Source: Agelas oroides
Taxonomy: Eukaryota > Porifera > Demospongiae > Agelasida > Agelasidae
Reading direction: 5' to 3'
NCBI GenBank assembly: GCA_949130485.1
Contig: OX422185.1
Location: 14,817,011-14,881,010 of the forward strand
DNA: 64,000 bases
Positions 6,088 to 59,850 of the stretch are shown piece by piece. The notes below the pieces were generated by a model, which was not told where the DNA came from, made no database searches, and was given only the letters and a program-made list of their open reading frames with translations. Every line of letters starts with the position of its first letter. Within the stretch, counting starts at the first letter, position 1. The position numbers and the translations under genes were made by a program.

Positions 6088-8318
6088 CTGGAGCTGGCCC
6101 AACACTGCTATACACAACTGCAACGGATTTCAATAATCGAGAAATGATTTTTCTAGAGCAGATGGAGAACGTACAGAATCATGTGGCGCTACCTTATGTG
6201 CATGGACATGGATGTGGCGGCAAAAGTGGCTGCATTGTTTGGCAGTACAGACTTAAGCATGTTCGAAAGAACTGTGGAGCCGGCCACCAGAACCCACATG
6301 TAAGTTACCTTTAGTACACATAGCTCTGTAATTGTCTTTTCTGACTGACCTTAAAGCATAAAACCATAAACTGTATTTCAAGGGTACACCAAATAATCAT
6401 GAGCCCTCCCGTGCTACTGTACAAGTTGAAGTTTAAATATACCAAAGGACCACCTGATGAATTCTAGCCCATTTCATGCCTAAAGCATATAAATTTGAGT
6501 ATAATGTTTTGCATACCAACCACATAGTAGTGTAAAGGTTTTTGTTTTCCAGGGGTTATGTAGCATATTACATTGCATATGTGTGTTCAAAACTGCTCAG
6601 CATTGTGCAAACTGGATGGGACAATGAGAGCTAGTGACATAGCTAGTCTGAGAATGAGTCTGTGAATTTGCCCTCCTAGTATTGAGTTTGCAGGTGTTCT
6701 TGTAGTAGTCCTTGGCCAATTCTGCTCAAAAATTAGGCTGTTATGCTATGCTCCTATACTTTTATGACTAGCTCACACCAATTTTTGAAACCCCGCTCTC
6801 TGGCTTAGTTTGTCAAATGTCATGACTTTATTTTCTGCTGTCAGTTTGTAAACACAGTGTACTACAAAACAGCTATAAGAGGCACTCTCTTTCATAGGGA
6901 GCAAGGCCTCACGAGTTCAGGAGTCAAACATTTTTGTGGTTGATAAATGTGGGGCAATAGCTGCCCACCCACATGAACTTAGGGAGAGCCCCTGATGAGG
7001 AACTCATATGCAACAACCAGTGGGTCTAAGCTAGTTAGGTACCAATAGCATATTCATAACAAACACACAGCAACAGCATAATTTATACACAAGCAGACTA
7101 TAGAAGCCAGTTGTTAACACACCCTAGGGACAGACGAGGGAGGACATGACATCACGTGTTCCAAGAGCCAGCTATATACAAGGATGGCTCTATGGACTAA
7201 GTCACAATTGGGCACACGAGGTTTTTAACTGAGCTGAAGCCATCTGGCTAGTCAAAATTGGTTAACTTGCATGTTGTTGGTTCAACACTAGGCGAGTCAC
7301 AAGAGGGTACTTTGACTGCCATACATCTTCAGCTTGTCATAAACCTCATGCGCCCATCACCCTCCATTCCACTTTATCGTCCCTGTATCCCGGCTTCTTG
7401 ACTTTGGACTGTCAGTTAATTTTCACTATCACACCACCATGTCCTCCCTCCCCTGCCCTAGAGCTTCAGTAAACTTCAACCCCAGCCCTTGGCTGGAGTA
7501 CTATTGTAAGTGGTTAACAACTATAACATAATTATGTATTTCACCTGTCTTGTTCATCCAGGTCAGTCTTGGAGTACAAATAACAGCATCCTGAAGTATA
7601 GATATGGGAGTGAAAGTGAAGGTAAGTTGAAGAGGTTACTTGTGTTAAACACCACAGGTCTACATGGTATCAAATCCATCTTGAAGAAAAATATGTTGTA
7701 TATACAGTGGTCTCGTCCCCAGACCCCACCCTCTAACGAGGAGAAACAGTCTGGTGAAGCAAGTCGAATTTCTTGGGCTAGCGCACGCTTTTGCGACAAT
7801 GTAACCTAGCAACATTCAAAACATTTTGCGGCCAACCTGTAAGGGAAGTGCTACGTCATAATTACCAAACTTTTAATCTCATTGGTTCTTATCACTTTTG
7901 GGGAATACGCCCAAGAAATTCAACTTCGTTCACCAGACTGTTTCTCACCGGGAGGTGCACGTGGGCTGGGCACGAGATTATACCAACATCTAGCTGACTT
8001 GGGGGCTTCAACAACTCTTTTGTGACATTACTAAGTTTAGACCACCCCCTTCCTTATAATGTCATATCTAAATACGCAATTGTCCAAGGTACTCTTTGTA
8101 CGCACAAGTTTTATCAAACAGTCTACCCTCCTTCCCCCTCAACGTCACAAAGACATTGTTTGGAACAAAAATAGTTTGCAGGTACAGGACTGCTTATCCT
8201 TATAAGTCTGAACTGATAATCATTTTTTCTTCCTCTCTTGCCCTCATACAGGTACAGAATCCGCAACAATGCCAAGCGCACACAGCTACGTGGCCAGGCA
8301 CATGATATTGATGATTAG
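6088..8318 (+). CDS. Possible plus-strand gene, three candidate exons, unrecognised
   Basis: Three segments have good splice signals. 6,088-6,299 follows TTTTTACTAG, is open for 212 bp and ends before GTAAGT. 7,562-7,621 is a 60-bp exon between CATCCAG and GTAAGT that reads GQSWSTNNSILKYRYGSESE. 8,252-8,318 follows CCTCATACAG and in one frame reads YRIRNNAKRTQLRGQAHDID, then D and a stop. The second exon's phase does not join cleanly to the third in that frame; an alternative frame also stops nearby. Exon linkage is therefore unsure, and no domain is recognised. The intron between exons 2 and 3 holds a MITE. The three segments may belong to different transcripts. Confidence 0.25.
7705..7978. 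mobile_element. MITE with TGGTCTCGTCCCC-type ends
   Basis: The inverted arms are CAGTCTGGTGAAGCAAGTCG/AATTTCTTGGGC at 7,749-7,780 and their complement at about 7,910-7,941. The outer ends TGGTCTCGTCCCC and GGGCACGAGATTA are also inverted. The element at 28,035-28,958 has the same ends. Confidence 0.7.
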
Positions 8319-42481: not shown

Positions 42482-44473
42482 TGTGAATTTAATTTTACAT
42501 CAAACTCCAAATGTATCTCATAAGACAAGTGCTAAATCATTACCACCTGAAGTGGCGTAGAAACAACTTTAGATTGGAGTATGTACATTGTGTTTCTAAG
42601 TGCATGACTTTACCCACATTTCAACGAATCATGAAGTCTAAATTTGGCACAAGAGACTTCATGATTCTGATTGTCAGATAGCACTTGATATGTTGAATAA
42701 AACTTTGTCTGGTGAAGGTTGAAATATAAAGCCTAAACTGAATGGTGAACTATTTCTAAACACTAACATCACAGAAAGTGTTAAGTACCTTCACAAGCTC
42801 ATCTGAGTTCTCGACCAGGCAGACTTGGACTGCAAACAAACTGGCATCCTTGCCAACTCTCGCACAGAAAAATACCAGCGGAACATACTGTCGAATATTG
42901 TCAGTACTTGCACTTGAGAGTGTAGAAGTCTGACTTTGCTCTGTCTGGCTAGCTTGTTGAAACGTGTCCCTGATTTCTGGCAACTCAGAATCTTCATCAA
43001 ATTCATCGGTAACGCTGAGTTTGTGTCGGTCATGGTAGCCGGGGCTTGCACTACTGGTATATCCTGTATCATTGGATTCAGTGCTGTTGCGATCAGCTGT
43101 TGAGTTGGGGTTGTTAGTCTGCTCACTGCTTCTTCTCACTTCTGAGCTTGTGTCATCTCCTTCTCCCTTATCACCTGAGTCAAACATAGCCGGAGGATCG
43201 ACTAAAATGTTGTCAAGCGAATTCAGACTGGTTACCGAGTTGTACAGGAAGGAATCGCTGGGTGGGCGTGCAGGAAGCTCGAACACGTCTGGAGAGAAGG
43301 GTGAGGGAATTACTCTTTCCTGTGTTGCCTGATTTTCACCATCTTTGTCCTCTGGTACTGATTCAACAAGACTCAGTTTGGGTTCAGAAATACTGGCACT
43401 ATTGCTACCATTTTCTGACAGCGCCTCGGGACTCTTCAACCCCCCTAGCGTAACTTTAGAATAGCCTTGGTTTGCCCTCACTTTACAAAGCACACGAGGA
43501 GGACTGGATCCTGCACTAGGACCATGTCTCGTATTTATTTCAGAGGTACTACTTTGTTCCAGTGCAAAATTAGGGCCAACTTTTGTGACATACTCTTCAT
43601 TGATCGTCCCATTTGCTCCTCCATTCTCATTATCACCCTCCTCATCTGAACTATCAGCTCCATCCTGCTTGTTGACAAAGAGTGGTTTCTCGTGTCGTAG
43701 TGTGATTTTACGGTAGCGGAATGATCGTGTCATGTTTGAGCGTAGAAGAGTGGAATTATCATGCCCAGGTCGACCCATTTCTGGTACAACAGGTAGTTCA
43801 AGAAGTTTATGATCATTTTTCGGGCTTTGCTTTTGTTTCGACCGAGGGCATGATGATTTCATTGCCTTTTTGCGCTGAAGTCCAGCCGATTTCACAACGA
43901 ACAGCTTGCCTTCCATCACCCCACCTTGGTCAGTTTCATCACGTTCTTTTGCACTTGTGGTACTTTTGGCAGCCAAGGAGGGAGGCGGAACTTTACTAGG
44001 TAGATGTTCAAGTGGAAGAAAACTTGAGGCAGCTACATGTATGTCCTGTGGGCTACCGATACTCACTGCTCTTTTGTGAGTTGTATCTTTTTTTCGTTCT
44101 GAGATAGACATTGGTTTGATTGCAAGTGGAACGGATGCCAGAGCTCGGCTTCTATCTGGCGAGGACACCGCTGGTGGGTTGCTTCCAACAAAAGATATCC
44201 CATTGTGAACTGCGAATGAGCTGGGACGTTGAGGAGGGGCTGGAGACAATTCCACACTGCTGTCTTGTGATCCCCGCAGGTTTATTGTCTCTGCACTGTC
44301 TCGAATGTAGTGCAACAGGGTCATTGTGCTCTTTGATGCGCCACTTCCATACAGAGTTTTGCTTGGGGAGGTGACTGAGAACCGGTGGGTTGATACGGAT
44401 GGTTTCACTCTGTGGACAGCATTGTGGTCCTTCGAGTGCCGCAATCCAATGTCCAACAACTCAATGGTTTCAC
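40634..44473 (-). CDS. C-terminal part of a large Ser-rich protein, four exons, unidentified
   Basis: Exons on the minus strand: 44,473-42,789 (phase-1 start after TTGTGTGCAG, about 562 codons), 42,411-42,256, 41,910-41,776, then AGA TCN CAA GAC TGA at 41,231-41,217 or its duplicate at 40,648-40,634. All junctions are AG/GT and in phase; exons 2-4 join in phase 0. The first part is Ser/Pro-rich and disordered, with basic (SERKKDTTHKR, RKKAMKSSCPRSKQK) and acidic (DSSDEEGDNENG) stretches. The last 150 residues look folded: YVPLVFFCARVGKDASLFAV, ESYRLVECEEL, QFEIRDLFGCSDKP, VEIRYADQMTVVPIEVQ, possibly a PH/PTB-like C-terminal domain. A signalling or scaffold role is only a guess. Upstream exons to the right were not found. 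An ATG 13 codons before the acceptor is intronic. Confidence 0.8.
42431..42480. repeat. (GT)n microsatellite
   Basis: About 25 GT units with two GC interruptions, in the intron between the first two exons of the minus-strand gene. Confidence 0.95.
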
Positions 44474-44519
44474 CTGCACACAACAAAGGTGGAAAAGTAA
44501 ATATGTAACTTGACAATCA

Positions 44520-49036: not shown

Positions 49037-49455
49037 CCACAGTGTATGTAGTACATACATAGCATACTAAGACCACAGTGTATGTAGTACATACATAGCA
49101 TACTAAGACCACAGTGTATGTAGTACATACATAGCATACTAAGACCACAGTGTATGTAGTACACACATAGCATACTAAGACCACAGTGTATGTAGTACAC
49201 ACATAGCATACTAAGACCACAGTGTATGTAGTACACACATAGCATACTAAGACCACAGTGTATGTAGTACACACATAGCATACTAAGACCACAGTGTATG
49301 TAGTACACACATAGCATACTAAGACCACAGTGTATGTAGTACACACATAGCATACTAAGACCACAGTGTATGTAGTACACACATAGCATACTAAGACCAC
49401 AGTGTATGTAGTACACACATAGCATACTAAGACCACAGTGTATGTAGTACACACA
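49037..49455. repeat. 36-bp satellite array, left part (about 11.6 copies)
   Basis: The unit begins CCACAGTGTATGTAGTACAC and continues ACATAGCATACTAAGA. The three leftmost units have CATAC where the others have CACAC. The array is cut at 49,456 by the Ginger-like element and resumes at 59,785. The long minus-strand frames (YIHCGLSMLCV repeats) exist only because 36 is divisible by three. Confidence 0.97.
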
Positions 49456-49490
49456 TGTAGGGTGCCCGTTAGTGGCCATGCCCGTTTGTG
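49456..49490 (+). repeat. Left terminal inverted repeat
   Basis: 35 bp beginning TGTAGGGTGCCCGTTAG and ending CCATGCCCGTTTGTG. 33 of 35 positions match the complement of 59,750-59,784. Its inner 15 bp recur in each 114-bp subterminal repeat. Confidence 0.93.
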
Positions 49491-49651
49491 GAAGACCCTC
49501 TACAAATGGATAATAATGGCATTTATGTCCGTATACTACTGGATATTAGTCTCACTAACCAGCATGGACAAAAATCAGAATGCCTGGTAGTGGCGCCCGC
49601 CGTAGAAGTCTGATTCTCTAAAGAAAGAGCTACAAAGAGAGGTTAGGGAAT

Positions 49652-49756
49652 TAGCCTCGATCCCAGGCTTTCCGTTGCGGATTTAGTCTCGCAGCTTTGG
49701 AGAAAATACCAAAGCTGCGAGACAAAATCCGGAACGGAAAGCCTGGGTTTGAGGCT
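49652..49756. mobile_element. TAGCCTCG-family hairpin MITE nested in the Ginger-like element
   Basis: TAGCCTCGATCCCAGGCTTT and AAAGCCTGGGTTTGAGGCTA bound a palindrome whose inner arms contain GTCTCGCAGCTTTGG and CCAAAGCTGCGAGAC. The flanks TAGGGAAT and TAGCGAAT differ by one base (8-bp duplication, counting the T after GGCTA). Confidence 0.8.
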
Positions 49757-50446
49757 ATTAGCGAATCATGAATGCCAGTGAGTAGCTACGGCAGCTAGTA
49801 CGGCACACACTGCATACGTAGCAGCGAACGAACTGACTTTGACTTGCAGAGTGCATAATTGTATGTTGAAAGCAAGAAGTCCTTGCTCAAGACTCAACCT
49901 TTCATCATAAAGTATCTCTGAGGAGCTAGCAGTCATCTAAGAAGTGCTGAGTACTGATTCTGGATTTTGTCCATGCCAGTTTCTAAACAATGTGAGGAAT
50001 CCTTGTGAAGGAGCAGTAAGAGATGAAGATGAGTATAATGCATTTGACCTTCATGTACCGGGTATGGCAAGGTCTACCTGCACTAGTTTTCAGAACCTCT
50101 GATTTTGAAGAAGCCGGCATGCAGTGTCTGTATTTGAGATGGGTATTAAGGTCAGAGTTCACAAACCATGAGACTCAACAGGTGTCAATTTGGTACTTGT
50201 ACATCATATGATGTCAGTGGACGTTTCTTGAAGAAATACCTTAAAGTGTGTAAAAACTGTGGTACTAAATTATAACAAACTGAAAGTATATTCAGTAGAC
50301 GAAACAGGAGAAGACAAACTATGATACCAGAAATCTCATGCAGAAACAGTGACTACTGCTGAGTTTGAGATGGCTAGTAATGCTGGTTTGACAAACCTCA
50401 GTGCGTACAGTTGCAGTGTTTGAGATGAGTTTTGAACTTCCTCAAG

Positions 50447-51640
50447 CATGGCAAGTCCTGCCCATGCCAGTTTGTGAAACTGACAAACCTTGCCATCATT
50501 GTGGAGAAATGGTGACTACAGCTGCTTTGAACATGGGTATTGTCCTTCATCACTAATGGGCATGGCTAGTCCTGTCCATGCCAGTTTGTGAAACTGACAA
50601 ATCTTGCCATCATTGTGGAGAAATAGTGACTACAGCTGCTTTGAACATGGGTATTGTCCTTCATCACTAATGGGCATGGCTAGTCCTGTCCCTGCCAGTT
50701 TGTGAAACTGACAAATCTTGCCATCATTGTGGAGAAATAGTGACTACAGCTGCTTTGAACATGGGTATTAAAATATAATTGTCCTTCATCACTAATGGGC
50801 ATGGCTAGTCCTGTCCATGCCAGTTTGTGAAACTGACAAACCTTGCCACCATTGTGGAGAAATAGTGACTACAGCTGCTTTGAACATGCATATTGTCCTT
50901 CATCACTAATGGGCATGGCTAGTCCTGTCCATGCCAGTTTGTGAAACTGACAAACCTTGCCACCATTGTGGAGAAATAGTGACTACAGCTGCTTTGAACA
51001 TGCATATTGTCCTTCATCACTAATGGGCATGGCTAGTCCTGTCCATGCCAGTTTGTGAAACTGACAAACCTTGCCACCATTGTGGAGAAACAGTGACTAC
51101 AGCTGCTTTGAACAATGATATTGTCCTTCATCACTAATGGACATGGCAACTCCTGCCCATGCCAGTTTGTGAAACTGACGAATCTTGCCATCATTGTGGA
51201 GAAATAGTGACTACAGCTGCATTGAACATGGATATTGTCCTTCATCACTATAATGGGCATGGCTAGTCCTGTCCATGCCAGTTTGTGAAACTGACAAACC
51301 TTGCCACCATTGTGGAGAAACAGTGACTATATACAGCTGCTTTGAACGATGATATTGTCCTTCATCACTAATGGACATGGCAACTCCTGCCCATGCCAGT
51401 TTGTGAAACTGACGAATCTTGCCATCATTGTGGAGAAATGGTGACTACAGCTGCTTTGAACATGGGTATTGTCCTTCATCACTATAATGGGCATGGCTAG
51501 TCCTGCCCATGCCAGTTTGTGAAACTGACAAACCTTGCCACCATTGTGGAGAAATAGTGACTACAGCTGCTTTGAACATGGATATTGTCCTTCATCACAT
51601 GGCTAGTCCTGCCCATGCCAGTTTGTAAAACGAGCCGTGC
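50447..51640. repeat. 114-bp subterminal tandem repeats, about 10.4 copies
   Basis: Units start at 50,447, 50,561, 50,675, 50,800, 50,914, 51,028, 51,142, 51,258, 51,376, 51,492 and 51,598. Each contains CATGCCAGTTTGTGAAACTG and GTGACTACAGCTGC. Some have 2-bp or 11-bp insertions. The motif CCATGCCAGTTTGTG differs from the inner terminal repeat at one of 15 positions, so the array multiplies a probable transposase-binding site. Confidence 0.92.
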
Positions 51641-51644
51641 CCAT

Positions 51645-52383
51645 TAGTGACAAATCTAATGAATTGAGTAGAAACTATAACTACATGGTGGCAATAGGGA
51701 TGGGTATTGACTTTCTTCATAAATCGTTACAAGCTGTTAGATTACACAAAATATGTAGGCATGTGGGTGTCTCATGCCTGTTAGTTTTCTAGCACCGAAT
51801 TATCAAGCCTGAACATGTACTTTCTTCATCAAAAGAATGTCTGCTCATGCCCAGTAAACAGCAGATACTCCAGATGATGAGAGCATTGCCTGGATTCCAT
51901 GTTATCTTATGGCTCAATAGGCACTAACATAATGCACCCTGTGTACATGACCATGTGGAAGGTTGCCATCATAGCTGAACATGCTAAAACTTCAGTGATT
52001 ATATACGTGCAGTTCATGTATGCTTGTTAGTGCATAATGCATCTAAAGTAAACTGCAAACGGGTGACAATCATTGCTTCTTCTGATGTGAGATTACATTT
52101 AGCTAGTAGCAATACAAATTCCAATTTGGCACAGAAATCATAAGGGTTAGACATATTGGGAGACTGGAGTCACTCTTTTGATGAAAGTACCACAGCTAGT
52201 TTCCCACAAAACTATAGCTACTTGCATGCATGCTTAACGTTACAAAGTGCAGCATAATACTGTTATTCATTGCAGAGACTATTGGTATTCATAGGATGGG
52301 AAATGTATGTGTGTCATAAGATCTTTGAGCTGTATCCCAAGGTATCGAGAATGCTTCACTGAGTATAGCCACCATTGCCTGTG
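51645..52383. other. Non-coding spacer and 3' flank of the transposon gene
   Basis: Between the 114-bp array and the protease gene's stop at 52,384. It has AT-rich sequence, one further TIR-like GCCCATTAGTGACAAA near 51,638 and no gene. Confidence 0.4.
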
Positions 52384-55300
52384 TTAGAGAAACATATATA
52401 CAGCTATAATACACATTTCCTGCATTTCATTTGTTGCAACAACAGCATTTACTTCTGGCCACAGCACTTGTCGGGTAAGCCATGATGAGGAGTAGCTTTT
52501 CTGTTGGAAAGCAATCTCACGAAGATAGTATAAAACTTCAGTAATCTGTGCAAGAACACAAATAGTTACACACTGTGGATGCAATGCACTACATCAAGAA
52601 ACTTACAATAATCGAGTCTTGTAGTGGCCATGTGACAGTCGGAATTGTCCTTTCCTTCGGTGATCTGGCATCCAGCAGGTGTTTTCCGTATGGGCTTGAC
52701 ATAGGTTTGTCAGCCACTCTTTCAAGATGTCTCTGCCAATGTTAATGGTTCATGTATGTATACTGAACTGTATATTAATGCATGTTAGTACTTGATGTTC
52801 ATACCTCAGCCTTTTTCAGAGCAGTATGAATCACTTTTCTTGGGATGTTGCCATCTCTATTAGGAGAAAAAAATTTAAGTCCAGTTTTGTGGAAGCCTAT
52901 GGTATAATGTTAACCTCAATGGGGGGCCAAGTGCTGTTGTCAACAATGTCTGTGCTGCATGTATGTAGTTTTTCTTTCTTGTTGCAAAGGTAAAGATTGG
53001 TTCATCACACACCAGACTTTCTGGCTTGTCTAGAGAGTCTGGAATAATCAGCTCAATGTTGTCTTTCTGCTGGTCTACATATATTGGAAAGTAAACATAA
53101 CTCCAGGCAATGCAACGTTAGCAGAAATTTATGCATTTTCCAGCTAAACTGTGCATTTGCCAGCTACACTATGCATTTTCCAGCTAAACTGTGCATTTGC
53201 CAGCTACACTGTGCATTTTCCAGCTAAACTGTGCATTTGCTAGCTACACTGTGCATTTGCTAGCTACACTGTGCATTTGCTAGCTACACTGTGCATTTGC
53301 TAGCTACACTGCGCATTTGCTATAGCTAAACTGTGCAATAATCAGTGAGATAAAGGTACCTTTCATAGTGATGTCAGTGACATCTTCATCCATGCTACTT
53401 GAATCTTCATCACTGTCTATGTCACTATGTGCTGAGAGTATAAGGACAGCAGGTACATAATATTGGTGCTTGCAAATGGCCACTGTACAAGTCTTACATT
53501 TTGTGTGCTCTTCTCTTGTGGACCCCTATATTGCGGTGAGATGTTAGAGGATGAAGTGATCATTACAGGTGTTTTTATGCATTCAATTCTGTGTATTCAC
53601 CTGGAAATTGATACACAGCTTCTTTCTTAACTGCTCCTTGACTGCACTGTATCCTTCCTTGGTTTCAACTGCATCTATCATACTTGAGCTGCAAAGTATA
53701 ATACAGCTGTATGTCATATAATCATGTAGTCGAGCACATTAAGGCAAACATATCCTGCTGCAATCACCATACCTCATCATTATCTCACATAGCAGCCACT
53801 TCCTTATTACTGTTGGTGTTGTCTGCATGAGATAATAAGGTCAACTAAGTGTGAATTTCAAACATACAGTTCTGAGTTCAATATTCAGTTACTTCCAGAG
53901 TACTTCTCACACCTCAAAATTGATCTTCTGACTCCTCACCAAGCAGGCTGCAAACTGTTTGCATGTAACTAGATTACTAATACAACACCTTGTTCACACA
54001 GCTAGTTGCAAACTAACCTTGCACACAAAGACTCCACAATCAGATGAATTTTCCTGTTGTGGAATATTCTGTAATATAAAGGATAATCATGCCGTGTAAG
54101 ACCAAAAGTATTTGTAGTCACAACAGATTTTACACTTACAGTTTTGTTTAGCATTCTCCATTTACAGACCGGTTGACTGTACCCACTTTTCTGGCAGAAC
54201 AGTGTGAGGATTTCCCTGCAAGGACCATTTAGTGTGAATTGGCTATCTTTTATTATACAGAAATATCACAGATGTACCCTATATTCATCATGATTGCAGT
54301 GTACTGTGGTTGCGGACATTGCCTTTCAACTTCACCCTGTTCTCCCACTAATGAGTCATATGAAACTACTTTTCGCTGCACAAAGTCAAACACCTACATG
54401 GTGTAATCAGCATTGCATATTTGTAAACACTCACACATGTAGTGTACAATGAGCAGACGTACCACTATGATCCAATGCACTCCTAGGTTCACTGGCACTA
54501 CAATCTTTCGGATGCTCTTAATATCCTCCTAAGCACAGAGATAATTGTAAGTCAAATTCTAAATTAAATTTGAATACACTCCTACCTTTAAGTAGCTGAA
54601 CAATCTTTGTTCAGAATACTCCTTGGCACCTCGTTTCCACCGCATCACAGCTTCATAGAAGAAGGATGAGACACACAGAACCTTGGTTGCAAAGGCCTGC
54701 TTAACCAGCGACAGCTGTAATGGTTGTATAGGCAGATCTTGTTTGTGACACAAAAATAATGTAGGTTATCTAACCTGTGAAATCTTCTGGTTTTGCTCCT
54801 CATTAAGATTATGCATAAAGAAATTTATCACCTATGATCATTAAGAACAGATTGCTACAGTTAGTATGGCACAAATACCACAACAGTTAATACATTATTA
54901 ACCTTGTCATTGATCCATAGCACATTGGCTATATTTTGGATGTCTCCCACAGTTAGTAAGTCACCAGTCAGTGCAAGAACTTCCATTGCAGGAGGTATGG
55001 CTGTAGAGTTTGGGGTTAGGAATTGCAATGGTTATGGTTGTAGGGAGTAGTAGTTCGTAGAAGCCACATGCAGTACCTTTGAGGTCAGGGAATCCTCTGT
55101 CACCAACTGCAGTGCTGATGGAGTATGAAACCATCATCGATTATAATAATTTGCACTGTGCCCATAATCACCTTATTAGGTTTGAGCACTGTTGACCAGT
55201 TCTGCCAACACGGTTTTGCACTTTAAGTGGTGTTATCAACACAGTAGCAGTGCACCTTCCAGGTAGACAGGTAGACATCTTTGAGTAATTACCTGAGGGA

Positions 55301-57350
55301 TGCAACATGGTTTGAGATGACTTAGGAACAGTTGCGTGACACATGTATACGGTAGATGTAAATACATTGCATTAACCTACAGCACACCTGCATGGTCTTC
55401 TACTTCTGTAGCAAGGGTGGTAGCAGCCACTTTAGAATGATCGGAATGTCCAACAGGATATTTAACTTTAAGAGGAGTGACTGACACAACAGCAGTGCGC
55501 TTCCCAGGAAGACAAACTCGAATTCCAGCCACAGGCTTCTTGATAGTAGTATCTGTAGATGCAGAACAAAATTACCCCTTTGCTTGTTGACTACTTATTG
55601 TGGAAACTGAAAAAATGTTGCAGACCTGTATGTTTTGCTGCACTTGCAGCTATAGTAGTTGCAGAGTTGTTAGACCAAAGAGCACATTTTACATCAGGAG
55701 GTGGTAGTTTGACAGGAGTTACCAATACACTAGCAGTGGATGTCCTAGAAGTAGATTGAGCTCCCACTACATGCTTTCTGGGAAGGGCTGCAAGACCAAA
55801 TTATCAATCATGACTAGTGACTTAACAAAAGTTCTAAGCGGTTTTACCTGGATTTTCATTACTGTCAGCAGATGGCCTGACAAGCACAAATGTATAGCAT
55901 GATTTGTCTATCATTATATCCTGTACAATTCTCATTGTCAGTTTTCTGGGCTTTCTTTGCTTGGAATCAAGATGCCACATGTTGGAAGTAGATTCAATAT
56001 GGATGGAAGTGTAGTGCAGACGTTCTTGCCAATAAACAATTAGTGTGCAAGGAAAGGAAGTCTTGCCTAAGGCAGCAGATACAAACTTCCCAGGAGAAGA
56101 AAAGTCAGATGGGACCAAGGGCTCTTGTACTAGTTCATTGAGATTAAGAAGTTGGTCACCAAAGCATTCAACTACTTCTCTTAGGACTTCAAAGGAGTAA
56201 AACCCATTCACATCTCTTTGAATTTGTAGCTCATCAGTGAGATCTAAGGAAAACTGCTCTATCTGACGAAGCCAAAGATCATCAGCAATGTTGTCAAGCT
56301 GATCCACAGTTAGTTTTTCATTACTGTATGCATTGTTGATGGCACAAAGTCCACAGTAGTTCGATTGTCCTTGGGATTGCATCCATGGTTTGTGATGAGA
56401 GATGTGTACCTGACTTTGAATGATAGAATCTGCATGAACACCAAGGACTTGAGCCATGTACCTCACATTGCAATACAGATTTTGCTTGGACTGAATAGTG
56501 AGCTGTTTCCACGAGGTCAGGTACGGGGTGATTTGGAGTTGCAAGCTTGATATTCTCTCCTTGAACAGCGATCCTTTAGCAGATAGAATAGGAAGGAACA
56601 CTCTGATGTCATTCTGTTTTGGAGGTTGAGTTAAATCCTTTAACTTTCCTTTTGTGGATGACTGTTTTCCTTTTAGAATACTTTTTTTGGAAGCCTTCTT
56701 TCGTTTTGCTGGAGGCAATCTATTTTCCAATGGTGGAATGGCTCTCTTGCTTTCTTTTTCTTTGTGGGGTGTGTTTTTGAAGTCATCAGTGACTACCATA
56801 TCAGGATTGTCTTGAAAATAGTTGCATTTGCTACCAACTTGTTGAAACCACTCTTTGCAGCATGGGTGGAAGCAGGGTTGCATCCGACGGGCACACTGGA
56901 AACATTCATGTGTAGCTTCAATGAAACAAGGCAGGGAATGCTGAGAAAAAGGGAGATGAAGAAGTACTGGTGACTGGGATCGGGATGTTTCCCATAGGCA
57001 TAAACCAGCAAAGTAGAAACGATATTCTGCCTCTTTCAAGAAATTCATGATGGACACAAAACGTCTGTTAAGCTGAGCTAATAGTTCAGTATCCTCTGCC
57101 ACAGTTGCAAGAAAGCTGCAGTCACATGCATAACAGAACAGGTCAACTTGTATATTTAAATCATTTGCTTTTTCTGTCAGACCTAGTTCATCTAGGAAGG
57201 AATATTCTGCAGAGTTTTCCTTGACAAGTTGACGAATGAAGTCATGTATACTTTCCCGCATCTTTACAGCATGTGACAACACTTTCTCTGTAACATTTTG
57301 CAAAGTCAGGGATTGAACTGGTGATAAATCATCAGTACATTGTTCATTTT
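52384..57350 (-). CDS. Transposon-encoded Josephin-like plus Ulp1 (C48) dual-peptidase protein, about 20 exons
   Basis: The long first exon (57,350-55,848) has a Cys-rich CFQCARRMQPCFHPCC motif, a basic PPAKRKKASKKS signal and a Josephin-like domain near its end: NYCGLCAINNA (Cys), GFYSFEVLREV, LHYTSI (His), WHLDSKQRKP (Asp). Linker exons 55,787-55,626 and 55,552-55,388 follow, then small exons at 55,106-55,077, 55,000-54,903, 54,831-54,775, 54,714-54,586, 54,528-54,463, 54,393-54,278, 54,215-54,140 and 54,068-54,018 building a Ulp1 domain: WINDKVINFFM, NLGVHWIIV (His), VSYDSL (Asp), PQQENSSDCGVFVCK (Gln, Cys). C-terminal exons run 53,954-53,913, 53,822-53,773, 53,688-53,601, 53,525-53,498, 53,431-53,360, 53,074-52,915, 52,856-52,805, 52,734-52,607, 52,545-52,384, with an acidic DSDEDSSSMDED stretch. 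All junctions are GT-AG and in phase. It should cleave ubiquitin- and SUMO-type conjugates in the nucleus; that role is inferred. Confidence 0.82.
53130..53338. repeat. 20-bp minisatellite in an intron of the protease gene
   Basis: About ten units of TGCATTTGCTAGCTACACTG and variants with TTTTCCAGCTAAAC. It fills most of the 53,075-53,359 intron. Confidence 0.9.
55388..55787 (-). other. Duplicated linker exons in the protease gene
   Basis: Exons 55,787-55,626 and 55,552-55,388 encode related 54-55-residue segments, both phase 1-1: VLVTPVKL...TTIAASAAKHTG against VSVTPLKV...ATTLATEVEDHAG. A third related piece at 55,276-55,175 (TCLPGRCTATVLITPLKVQ) lacks a usable phase and looks like a decayed exon. 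Tandem exon duplication is the simplest origin. Confidence 0.7.
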
Positions 57351-57360
57351 CTGTTAGAGG

Positions 57361-59624
57361 TCAGCCCAGAACCATTGTTGAAGCGTACAGTGTAGCTGTA
57401 CATTCTGTTCCTTCAAGTGTGTTATATGAAACACGATAGTAATTGCAAGGCAGTACTTCTGTTACTCTGCCTTGTATATTGGGCACTACAACCATGCCAT
57501 ACTTTTCAGGGTGATGAAACCATACTTCATCTCCACACTTAAAGTCTTGGTTCTTGCTCTTCTTGGCATGCAGCAAATAGTTCTCATAATACTTCTTTTC
57601 AGTACCTTCAATTGCTGTCAATTCAATAATTCTTCGTTCTGTATGCAGTTCTAACAAACTTCTCTGGATTTCTCCAATGTTCTCTGACTGAATTGGGTGA
57701 CAGTTTACTGTCTTCTGAAGTGCTTCTTTCCCCATGTCACCATCAGTTTCACTATCAGTTTCACTATCACTATTGCCAGAGCCCCAAAAATCAGTGGGGT
57801 ATGTGCTCTTCTCAAATTTTTCTGTTCTAGACTCACATTTGCTATGTGAGTCCTTCATAAAAGCCATAAATTCATCTGAAGGCCATACTGCAACATCACC
57901 TCTGTCTGCAATGCTGCAATGGCGGGATGACCTTCCAAAGAAAACTTCAAAAGGAGTAGCACAAAGTGCGCTGTGCCAGCTGTTGTTCAAAATGAAGGTA
58001 ATCTCTGGCAAAAGAAATGGCCAAACTGTAGATTGTTCCTCTGGGGAAAAATCAAGCAAACGATAGCGAAGAATTCTTCGGATCTTCTTGTTTAATCGCT
58101 CAACTTGCCCCTGACTTTGGGGATGATATGGCCTTCCATGAAATATTCTGATCTTTAGGGATGAACACAACTCTTCAAGAACATGGCTTACAAATTCACC
58201 ACCATTATCAGATTGCAGTTTTTCTGGGCAGCCATACTGGGTGAATATACTTAGCAGGGCCTTTGATACCATTGCTGAGGTCTTGGACGCAAGTGGAACA
58301 AGCCAACAATATTTTGAAAAGCAATCCATAACTGACAAGATCAGTCGGAAGCTGTGTGCTGATTGTTCAACAAATGGACTCTGTGAGCCATACATCTCCA
58401 GTAAATCAATCTGAATGCGTTCCATGACTCGAAAGCTACGGATCAGCTTAGGTGGTGGTTTACGTGTTTTTAGAGCTGCCATTCTTTTACAAGTACCATC
58501 ACAATTCGCTTTGACATCCTGAACAATTTTTCTCACACCTTTACAATCATATTGCTGGGAGAAACACTTTATAATTGCATTTATCCCATCTTTCCTACAT
58601 GCTCTGCCTTGTGGACGGTGAATGTTACTAATAATCTCCCGAGCTCTGTTGGCATGTACAACTTCCCTCCTCCCTTCACTGGTAAGCCGATATAAGGTTC
58701 CACTCCCTTCATCATAGCAAAAGTTAGGTTTGCTTTTGCAGCTACCAGAGTACATATAGCTCGTATTTTGCTTTATAAAATCATCTACCTCAGGGATCTT
58801 GTCTGGATTGCCCCGAATTGCTGCCACCAATAAATCATACCTCTCTTCAGAGAGTGGGCCTCTGTTGGCAGTGGAACGTTTCTTGTGGCAAGATTCTGCA
58901 CAAATTACATTATTGTACATTGTATTTACATGCATTGTACATAGTGTTGTCAAAGTTCTCAGGAGTATTCCCAGGTCTTTTGGTAACCCCACTTCATGCT
59001 GGGGGGTAGCATTGCAAGTGGTTAAGTCTAAGCCATTGAGCTTGCAGCAGTCAACAGACATGAGCTCGGTTGCCCTATGGCTACACAAACACCATTCTGT
59101 ATGGTAGTACTACCCTCATTCCCATGTTCCTCCCAGACATAGATACAGATGGGAAGTGAGGCTATGACAGTACTGTAACTAACAATGGCACATCCTTGTT
59201 GAGTACGTAATTACAAATTAACAGTAGCAGGATTTCAACCACAGTAAAAGAATGACATTGGCAGCCACTAACCATCCTGTCCACGAACTGGCAGAGCAGC
59301 CATCAAGCACCTTGCTCTTTCCCTATATAATATACATATGAAGAGTAACCATGCAGTGCAAGTGGTTTGGACGACAAACTATGAGGTTATGTACTGCTGT
59401 ATAGCCACGAATGATTACAATGCCAAGAATTACTAGGGAGTTAAACGATGTGGGTTATGGCTACCTGCTTGCAAAGTCACTTCTGCAGGTAATTCTGAGA
59501 ACCGTGGATCCCCGGGCCCAGTACCGTCAATGTCCTCGAGAAGGCAGACTAGACCAGACCGACGTTGGTTAGCAATACCAATCAGAAAGACTAATGGAAA
59601 AATGGAAACAAGCTTTCCATTCAT
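57361..59624 (-). CDS. Ginger-type DD35E integrase/transposase, two exons
   Basis: Exon 1 is 59,624-59,465 from an ATG (MNGKLVSIFPLVFLIGIANQ...). The donor GCAG|GTAGCC is phase 1 and joins the acceptor CATACAG at 59,097 in phase; exon 2 is 59,096-57,361. Counting from codon 1 at 59,088 (a TTG, not the real start), an HHCC zinc finger lies at H145, H157, C196, C200. The rve core follows with D228 (ERIQIDLLEM), D294 (LQSDNGGEF) and E330 (SQGQVERLNKKI), exactly 35 residues between the last two. An acidic Ser/Asp stretch and a C-terminal chromo/SH3-like segment (FKCGDEVWF ... GRVTEVLPCNYYRVSYN), like GPY/F modules, follow. The protein cuts and joins the element's TGT...ACA ends. All catalytic residues are intact. 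The hydrophobic exon 1 is unusual for a nuclear enzyme; an unseen alternative start, such as M10, is possible. Confidence 0.88.
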
Positions 59625-59749
59625 GTGTGGTTAACAGTTCGCAATTACTGTCCGCTGGCTGGCCGGCTGGCGATATGCAGACATGCGCGTGCAAATAGCA
59701 AATGCGCATGCGTACGTACCCTGATCTTAATTATCCGGGTACACTCATT

Positions 59750-59784
59750 CACAAACGGGCACGGCCACTAACCGGCACCCTACA
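59750..59784 (-). repeat. Right terminal inverted repeat
   Basis: The complement of the left terminal repeat with two mismatches, ending GGCACCCTACA at 59,784, followed by CACACA and the resumed 36-bp satellite. Confidence 0.93.
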
Positions 59785-59850
59785 CACACATAGCATACTA
59801 AGACCACAGTGTATGTAGTACATACATAGCATACTAAGACCACAATATTA
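59785..59850. repeat. 36-bp satellite, right part (about 1.8 copies)
   Basis: CACATAGCATACTAAGACCA and GTGTATGTAGTACATACATA continue the array interrupted at 49,456. More degenerate relatives (CCCACAGTGTAGTGCATGGG) extend to about 59,950. Confidence 0.9.

Follow-up and report, generated by a model that had tools for sequence, protein, structure and literature searches.

We analyzed a 64,000-nucleotide stretch of the genome of the sponge Agelas oroides (contig OX422185.1, positions 14,817,011 to 14,881,010; "the window," with positions counted from its first letter) and found a 10.3-kb transposon, at 49456 to 59784, that carries two peptidases of different families together with its integrase. 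We read it as a cut-and-paste, Ginger-like element encoding one long protein, in which an H2C2 zinc finger and DD35E integrase would be followed by a Cys-rich linker, a Josephin-like peptidase, a peptidase of the Ulp1/SENP type, and, at the C terminus, a further conserved domain, and which would act as an eraser of both ubiquitin and SUMO. We put the probability of this reading at about 60%.

The element is delimited by terminal inverted repeats (TIRs) and by copies elsewhere in the genome. The left TIR (49456 to 49495, forward strand) starts TGTAGGGTGCC and lies on the 3' side of the gene; it pairs with the right TIR (59745 to 59784, reverse strand). The arms start with TGTAG and are 90% complementary over 40 nt, extending the 35-bp inverted ends of the initial annotation. 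Allowing up to three mismatches, the 35-bp end sequence matched the genome 20 times (11 forward and 9 reverse) and its backward control not at all, confirming that the ends are real; 12 of the 20 fell into six plausible left-right pairs, including the window's own. A nucleotide search of the 259-Mb genome with the element returned at least 108 matching pieces, a count that includes several pieces per copy as well as minisatellite and palindrome matches. Among the long matches listed, seven start exactly at the left end and four stop exactly at the right end, while two more overshoot the end by 3 bases or start 4 bases inside.

We compared 15 other matching loci with the window, scoring them feature by feature. 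Five (c5a, c3b, c1a, c2c, and c11b) possess the two TIRs and cover the integrase, Josephin, and Ulp1 stretches to 90% or more, with c11b retaining just 24% of the linker. A sixth, c3a, also has all features, but its left end is slightly eroded (88% coverage, 90% identity). The remaining nine are partial copies (c11a, c2a, and c5b), the left end with the tandem array or the array (c7, c1b, and c2b), or little else (c10, c8, and c22). The coding parts of the copies are 97 to 99% identical, except in c3a (92 to 97%) and c10 (88%, over a quarter of the integrase). Because several other copies with both ends carry the two peptidases, the data support their belonging to the mobile element. The other full copies examined contained both peptidases, and none of them lacked the protease gene.

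Target-site duplications (TSDs) were less uniform. The element is inserted in a 36-bp minisatellite (49037 to 49456 and 59785 to 59850), to which arrays near C3:15.74 Mb and C3:15.96 Mb are related. The flanking CACACA (49450 to 49455 and 59785 to 59790, forward strand) fits a TSD of 2, 4, or 6 bp and is weak evidence alone, since the minisatellite is CA-rich. Seven copies of this family were read at both ends, the window among them: two others have an exact TSD (GACTAC, 6 bp; GACCA, 5 bp), c11b has a 5-bp TSD with one mismatch (ACCGG/ACTGG), and three have none. The single copy checked of a second family, described below, has the 5-bp TSD CCACG. In this family, target duplication is exact in two other copies, at 5 to 6 bp, and the one first reported for the window is ambiguous in length.

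The integrase, or transposase, is encoded on the reverse strand at 57364 to 59088, with a provisional 5' limit (start codon, upstream exon). Its open reading frame (ORF) matched Pfam rve (E 1.9e-13) and holds all three acidic residues noted earlier, as D228, D294, and E330, with 35 residues between D294 and E330. An H/H/C/C set lies N-terminal to this DDE core. By eye, we saw no GPY/F motif after the core, where four aligned proteins read QGRV, QGEV, TGVI, and KGTV. In NCBIfam, the integrase resembled IS481, IS30, and IS3 transposases best, and also the IS21 and ISNCY families, with every match below the cut-off; the IS481 and IS3 matches agree with the likeness published for such integrases (PMC2836005).

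The adjoining exon (55848 to 57360, reverse strand) encodes a Cys-rich linker and the Josephin-like peptidase (domain at 56403 to 55870) and ends at a GT donor. The peptidase is assigned by profile, fold, and catalytic residues. The domain piece contains the catalytic set Gln11, Cys17, His130, and Asp146, and over 24 aligned rows these residues are present in 22/22 (Gln), 23/23 (Cys), and 18/21 (His and Asp, each) of the rows covering them. A structure predicted with the 24 sequences strongly matched the Josephin fold; it replaced a first prediction of a 260-amino-acid (aa) Josephin piece with four sequences, which was discarded at a predicted local distance difference test (pLDDT) score of 42. 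The predicted domain resembles the Josephin domain of ataxin-3, JOSD2, and bacterial Josephins (PDB structures 3o65, 6pgv, and 9fn4) in fold and catalytic arrangement but differs from them in sequence (13 to 20% identity) and in its attachment to an integrase.

Profile scores for this domain were near the curated Pfam cut-off for Josephin (PF02099) of 26 bits: 23.5 in the spliced model, 24.1 in the ORF, 26.2 in a genome scan, and 26.7 when trimmed. Scores elsewhere were 38.0 in the second family, 45.6 in a copy on C13, 34.5 in P0003, 26.5 in P0001, and 24.9 in P0004. A sequence-only search of solved structures gave a Parachlamydia Josephin as best match (E 0.029, not significant), and a three-row profile search placed unrelated chains on top and ataxin-3 at E 1.2, again not significant. 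NCBIfam had no match for the Josephin ORF, and Pfam Peptidase_C39 also matched two of three Josephin rows (best E 0.0073). The Cys/His/Asp set described initially is present, in a domain predicted from its sequence to remove ubiquitin.

The Ulp1/C48 peptidase is encoded by nine exons between 53773 and 55000 on the reverse strand (55000-54903, 54831-54775, 54714-54586, 54528-54463, 54393-54278, 54215-54140, 54068-54018, 53954-53913, and 53822-53773), and the same exons occur in the second family. Its catalytic set is complete, as the initial annotation had claimed: His (VHW) in the fourth exon, Asp (YDS) in the fifth, and Gln (PQQ) and Cys (DCG) in the seventh, within PQQENSSDCGVF. The spliced model matched Peptidase_C48 (PF02902) at 89.8 bits (E 3.1e-25; cut-off 20.7), and the second-family peptidase matched at 78.9 bits. 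The closest solved chains are SENP1 (E 5.3e-24) and SENP2, a likeness that is only suggestive of SUMO removal, the predicted activity. A Pfam scan of the ORF and the spliced model found no OTU domain at E values up to 1.

The integrase and Josephin frames are identical in phase, and in the window copy a single in-frame stop codon (57361 to 57363, reverse strand) divides them. This stop is particular to the window copy: the position is a sense codon in all seven other copies covering it, and at least three copies have frames open across the joint (929, 867, and 779 aa). From the GT donor that closes the Josephin frame, a chain of 19 exons, bordered by GT-AG and in phase with one another, gave 1145 aa without a stop, Josephin exon included; comparison with the second family shifted the end of the final exon and added one, making 20 exons after the Josephin exon. 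In this splice model, all on the reverse strand, four linker exons (55787-55626, 55552-55388, 55292-55172, and 55114-55077) precede the Ulp1 exons. Two more (53688-53601 and 53525-53360, the second acidic and lacking a confident second-family match) lead from Ulp1 to the C-terminal domain. This domain is encoded by five exons (53074-52915, 52856-52805, 52732-52607, 52545-52453, and 52378-52292, plus a stop, to 52289) and is 45% identical to its second-family counterpart. On the splice model, the two peptidases and the integrase most likely belong to a single spliced protein, and the initial picture needs correcting in this respect. The peptidases were correctly placed in the element at the outset; that they apparently share one gene with the integrase, and that a stop codon interrupts it here, had gone unremarked.

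In one of two sequences, the C-terminal domain weakly matched that of PWWP3A/B (PF20886; E 0.016, below the cut-off); as a lead only, it may derive by capture from a DNA-repair factor. A 20-bp tandem repeat of about 10 copies (53132 to 53337) occupies the intron preceding this domain. By eye, linker exons 1 to 3 (55787 to 55172), between Josephin and Ulp1, resemble repeats of one module of about 43 aa with a pattern like CLPGKRTAVVSVTPLKV, which suggests exon duplication.

A protein search of the genome revealed diverged Josephin loci, including L052 (C23:3017000-3025500), which represents the second family. Its order of integrase, linker, Josephin, Ulp1 exons, and C-terminal exons is that of the window. 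Assigned by homology, ten Ulp1-side exons have the same phases as in the window, and five C-terminal exons share the window's phases when begun in the window's phase. As an unbiased check on the hand-picked exons, we compared all open fragments of at least 12 aa in six frames (214 against 193). Of 16 matches at E ≤0.001, 14 are on the coding strand in both loci and strictly colinear, with 37 to 79% identity and one in a shifted frame over an exon; the other two are antisense. At the nucleotide level, just two short stretches of the same regions align, and 108 of their 115 bases are exonic.

The ends of the two families are also related. Several second-family copies end at L052 positions 7921 to 7924, and their end TGTAGTGTGTCCGTTATTGG resembles the window's TGTAGGGTGCCCGTTAGTGG. 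The second-family end pattern had 17 genome matches (control, 0), of which 12 form six plausible pairs 7.3 to 11.9 kb apart, one enclosing L052. By sequence, then, the four parts and their order have been retained in two families whose ends are related. Because a distantly related family in the same genome has this set, the combination looks lasting rather than accidental.

Two protein entries without genome context, P0003 (872 aa) and P0004 (1201 aa), are listed with rve and Josephin and are 29 to 30% identical to the element product; on rescan, the P0004 Josephin fell just under the cut-off. Apart from these, a search with P0004 retrieved 14 proteins carrying reverse-transcriptase domains and a single relative, P0006, that has the integrase only. 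In viral contigs, 11 stretches fit a pattern and none codes for a relative, and a plasmid collection gave no match; both collections may omit records of this genome.

A different arrangement, in which the Ulp1 exons, with the C-terminal domain, form a separate element gene with its own transcription and are not fused to integrase-Josephin, is unlikely, though it is the strongest of the alternatives. It is favored by the derivation of the splice model from genomic sequence alone and by the Josephin-Ulp1 linker, which is unmatched exon by exon in the second family. Against it, the Josephin frame ends at a GT donor and the subsequent exons hold an open phase in the window. Moreover, the longest coding-strand open stretch between Josephin and Ulp1 is 69 aa, so a separate Ulp1 gene would have no obvious first exon.

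Somewhat less probable still is that the peptidases chiefly process the element's own long protein and free the integrase, as the Ulp1-related proteases of adenoviruses and poxviruses act on viral polyproteins. All domains do seem to lie in one protein, and the Ulp1 part weakly matches Peptidase_C5 (E 0.0029) and Peptidase_C57 (E 0.015). However, its C48 match is far better than either, and its closest relatives are SENP1 and SENP2. Gly-Gly is absent from the 1145-aa Josephin-Ulp1 model and occurs once in the integrase ORF, within the integrase core. We know of no processing role for a Josephin domain. A search for simple patterns resembling SUMO-interacting motifs (SIMs) found none. That the peptidases are decayed host genes captured by chance and useless to the element is very improbable: captured host fragments are common in transposons and the intron-rich Ulp1 part looks host-derived, but the Ulp1 and C-terminal exons are kept in the second family at the identities given above while similarity outside exons is nearly absent, and the Josephin catalytic residues are conserved.

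Against the single dual-eraser protein, several points weigh. The window copy has its own stop codon between integrase and peptidases, and its Josephin score hovers at the Pfam cut-off. The exons were picked by hand from genomic sequence, and splicing is a model. In L052, the tenth Ulp1-side exon has no GT donor at the chosen 3' border, and the Josephin-Ulp1 join, the linker before Ulp1, and the acidic exon were not matched to the window; since the acidic exon and the pre-Ulp1 linker are unmatched, the running phase of L052 slips out of step. A codon-position selection test on same-family copies gave few and mixed differences, third positions being slightly in excess in no more than some of the copies, and was dropped for the cross-family comparison because the copies are too similar. 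A search of the initial 700 bases of L052 with 14-mers, allowing two mismatches at most, did not find the second family's own right-end core, leaving the reading given below for the tandem array unsupported there. Finally, we infer activity, expression, and substrates from sequence and models.

The element also has a 114-bp tandem array near its left end (50446 to 51649 with its edge; 9.9 units at 50446 to 51598 by Tandem Repeats Finder). Within the window, the TIR core GCCATGCCCGTTTGTG, at three mismatches or fewer, has 21 matches against a chance expectation of 0.39, and every one lies in the element: once per TIR and 19 times at 50461 to 51649, on both strands. As the units are tandem copies, these 19 cannot be counted as independent; what stands independently is the presence of the TIR core in the array unit, most units having it once per direction. 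On the simplest reading, the array is a candidate cluster of transposase-binding sites. Upstream of the second-family gene there is likewise a tandem array, at a spacing of about 124 bp.

Three further observations concern the element's left part, its lone ends, and its surroundings. A palindrome at 49652 to 49757 (49-nt arms, 92%) matches at least 14 other genome places at 92 to 94% on its own; with matches in so many places, it looks like a separate foldback element or miniature inverted-repeat transposable element (MITE) that other copies of the element contain as well. Lone ends occur at position 379 of L049 (G000:C8:6561500-6571400), where no stretch reaching 100 bp aligns, and at position 9513 of L051 (C22), with one 126-bp aligned stretch; both loci are possible non-autonomous relatives. 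Outside the element, 42756 to 44516 (reverse strand) holds a 586-aa Ser/Pro-rich open frame, perhaps a host exon.

In the mechanism we propose, the integrase part would cut at the TGT...ACA ends and insert the element with a 5- to 6-bp duplication, and the array of TIR cores would gather extra transposase. At the element, the transposase itself or host proteins of chromatin and repair would lose ubiquitin to Josephin and SUMO to Ulp1. Fusion to a DNA-binding integrase would place both erasers where transposition occurs, and removal of both marks would undo the host's SUMO-then-ubiquitin clearance. We hold more tentatively the specific proposal that this is a long-maintained transposase, with Josephin and Ulp1 fused to its integrase, that locally cancels a SUMO-targeted ubiquitin response at the element ends, its C-terminal domain, weakly PWWP3A/B-like, perhaps helping placement on damaged chromatin. 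Published support for the general protective idea is indirect: attachment of SUMO to the host factor HMGXB4 makes it a weaker helper of Sleeping Beauty transposition (PMC10138897), and the authors describing VTD peptidases propose that deubiquitinases of transposons may keep proteins required for transposition from being degraded (PMC9741609).

We compared the element with Ginger transposons through published descriptions. Like the element, Ginger1 (PMC2836005, Bao, Kapitonov, and Jurka 2010) has a Gypsy-type integrase with an H2C2 finger and DDE core, introns, a C-terminal peptidase, and TIRs of about 40 to 270 bp starting TGTNR, a description that the 40-bp ends starting TGTAG fit. Several Ginger1 elements carry Ulp1, and a Ginger1 transposase is described as having OTU or Ulp1 "but not both." The Ginger1 description further includes a YPYY motif, located upstream of the zinc finger. 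Unlike the element, which pairs Josephin with Ulp1, Ginger1 is given no Josephin in the available portion of that paper, placing Josephin beyond the Ginger1 definition. Ginger1 also has a GPY/F motif, a length of 2.6 to 7 kb, and a 4-bp TSD of CCGG or CCGT/ACGG, whereas the element lacks GPY/F, measures 10.3 kb, and has the TSDs given above. Ginger2/Tdd, by the same source, shares an integrase without GPY/F, TGTNR ends, and, in TDD-4/5, a 5-bp TSD. It differs in its AT-rich RTATAY targets, which the few sites of the element do not resemble, in its mostly 4-bp TSD, and in that the available text mentions no peptidase. The original Ginger-like label thus holds for the H2C2/DDE integrase, the TGTNR ends, and Ulp1; it does not cover the 5- to 6-bp TSD, the missing GPY/F, or targets that are neither CCGG nor RTATAY.

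The initial annotation knew of no described mobile element with two such peptidases. A literature search for Josephin with transposon, integrase, transposase, or transposable element gave nothing relevant among the matches listed, with Repbase and most subscription papers outside its scope, and in that literature the Josephin/Ulp1 pairing was not found. There is a precedent, however, in 121 VTD-carrying Helitrons that contain OTU domains as well (PMC9741609), so two de-modifying peptidases per transposon are not unparalleled. Those Helitrons likewise combine thiol peptidases from two families, each with ubiquitin as its proposed target, but they are rolling-circle elements with other peptidase families and, in the accessible part of that report, without Ulp1 or a transposon Josephin.

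The element adds Josephin to OTU and Ulp1 as peptidases known from integrase-type transposons, and it keeps two peptidases of different tag types with one transposase. With it, the idea that transposon peptidases counter host ubiquitin and SUMO control becomes directly testable. If the single-protein model is true, the element would provide a natural fusion of two erasers able to counter SUMO-targeted ubiquitin clearance.

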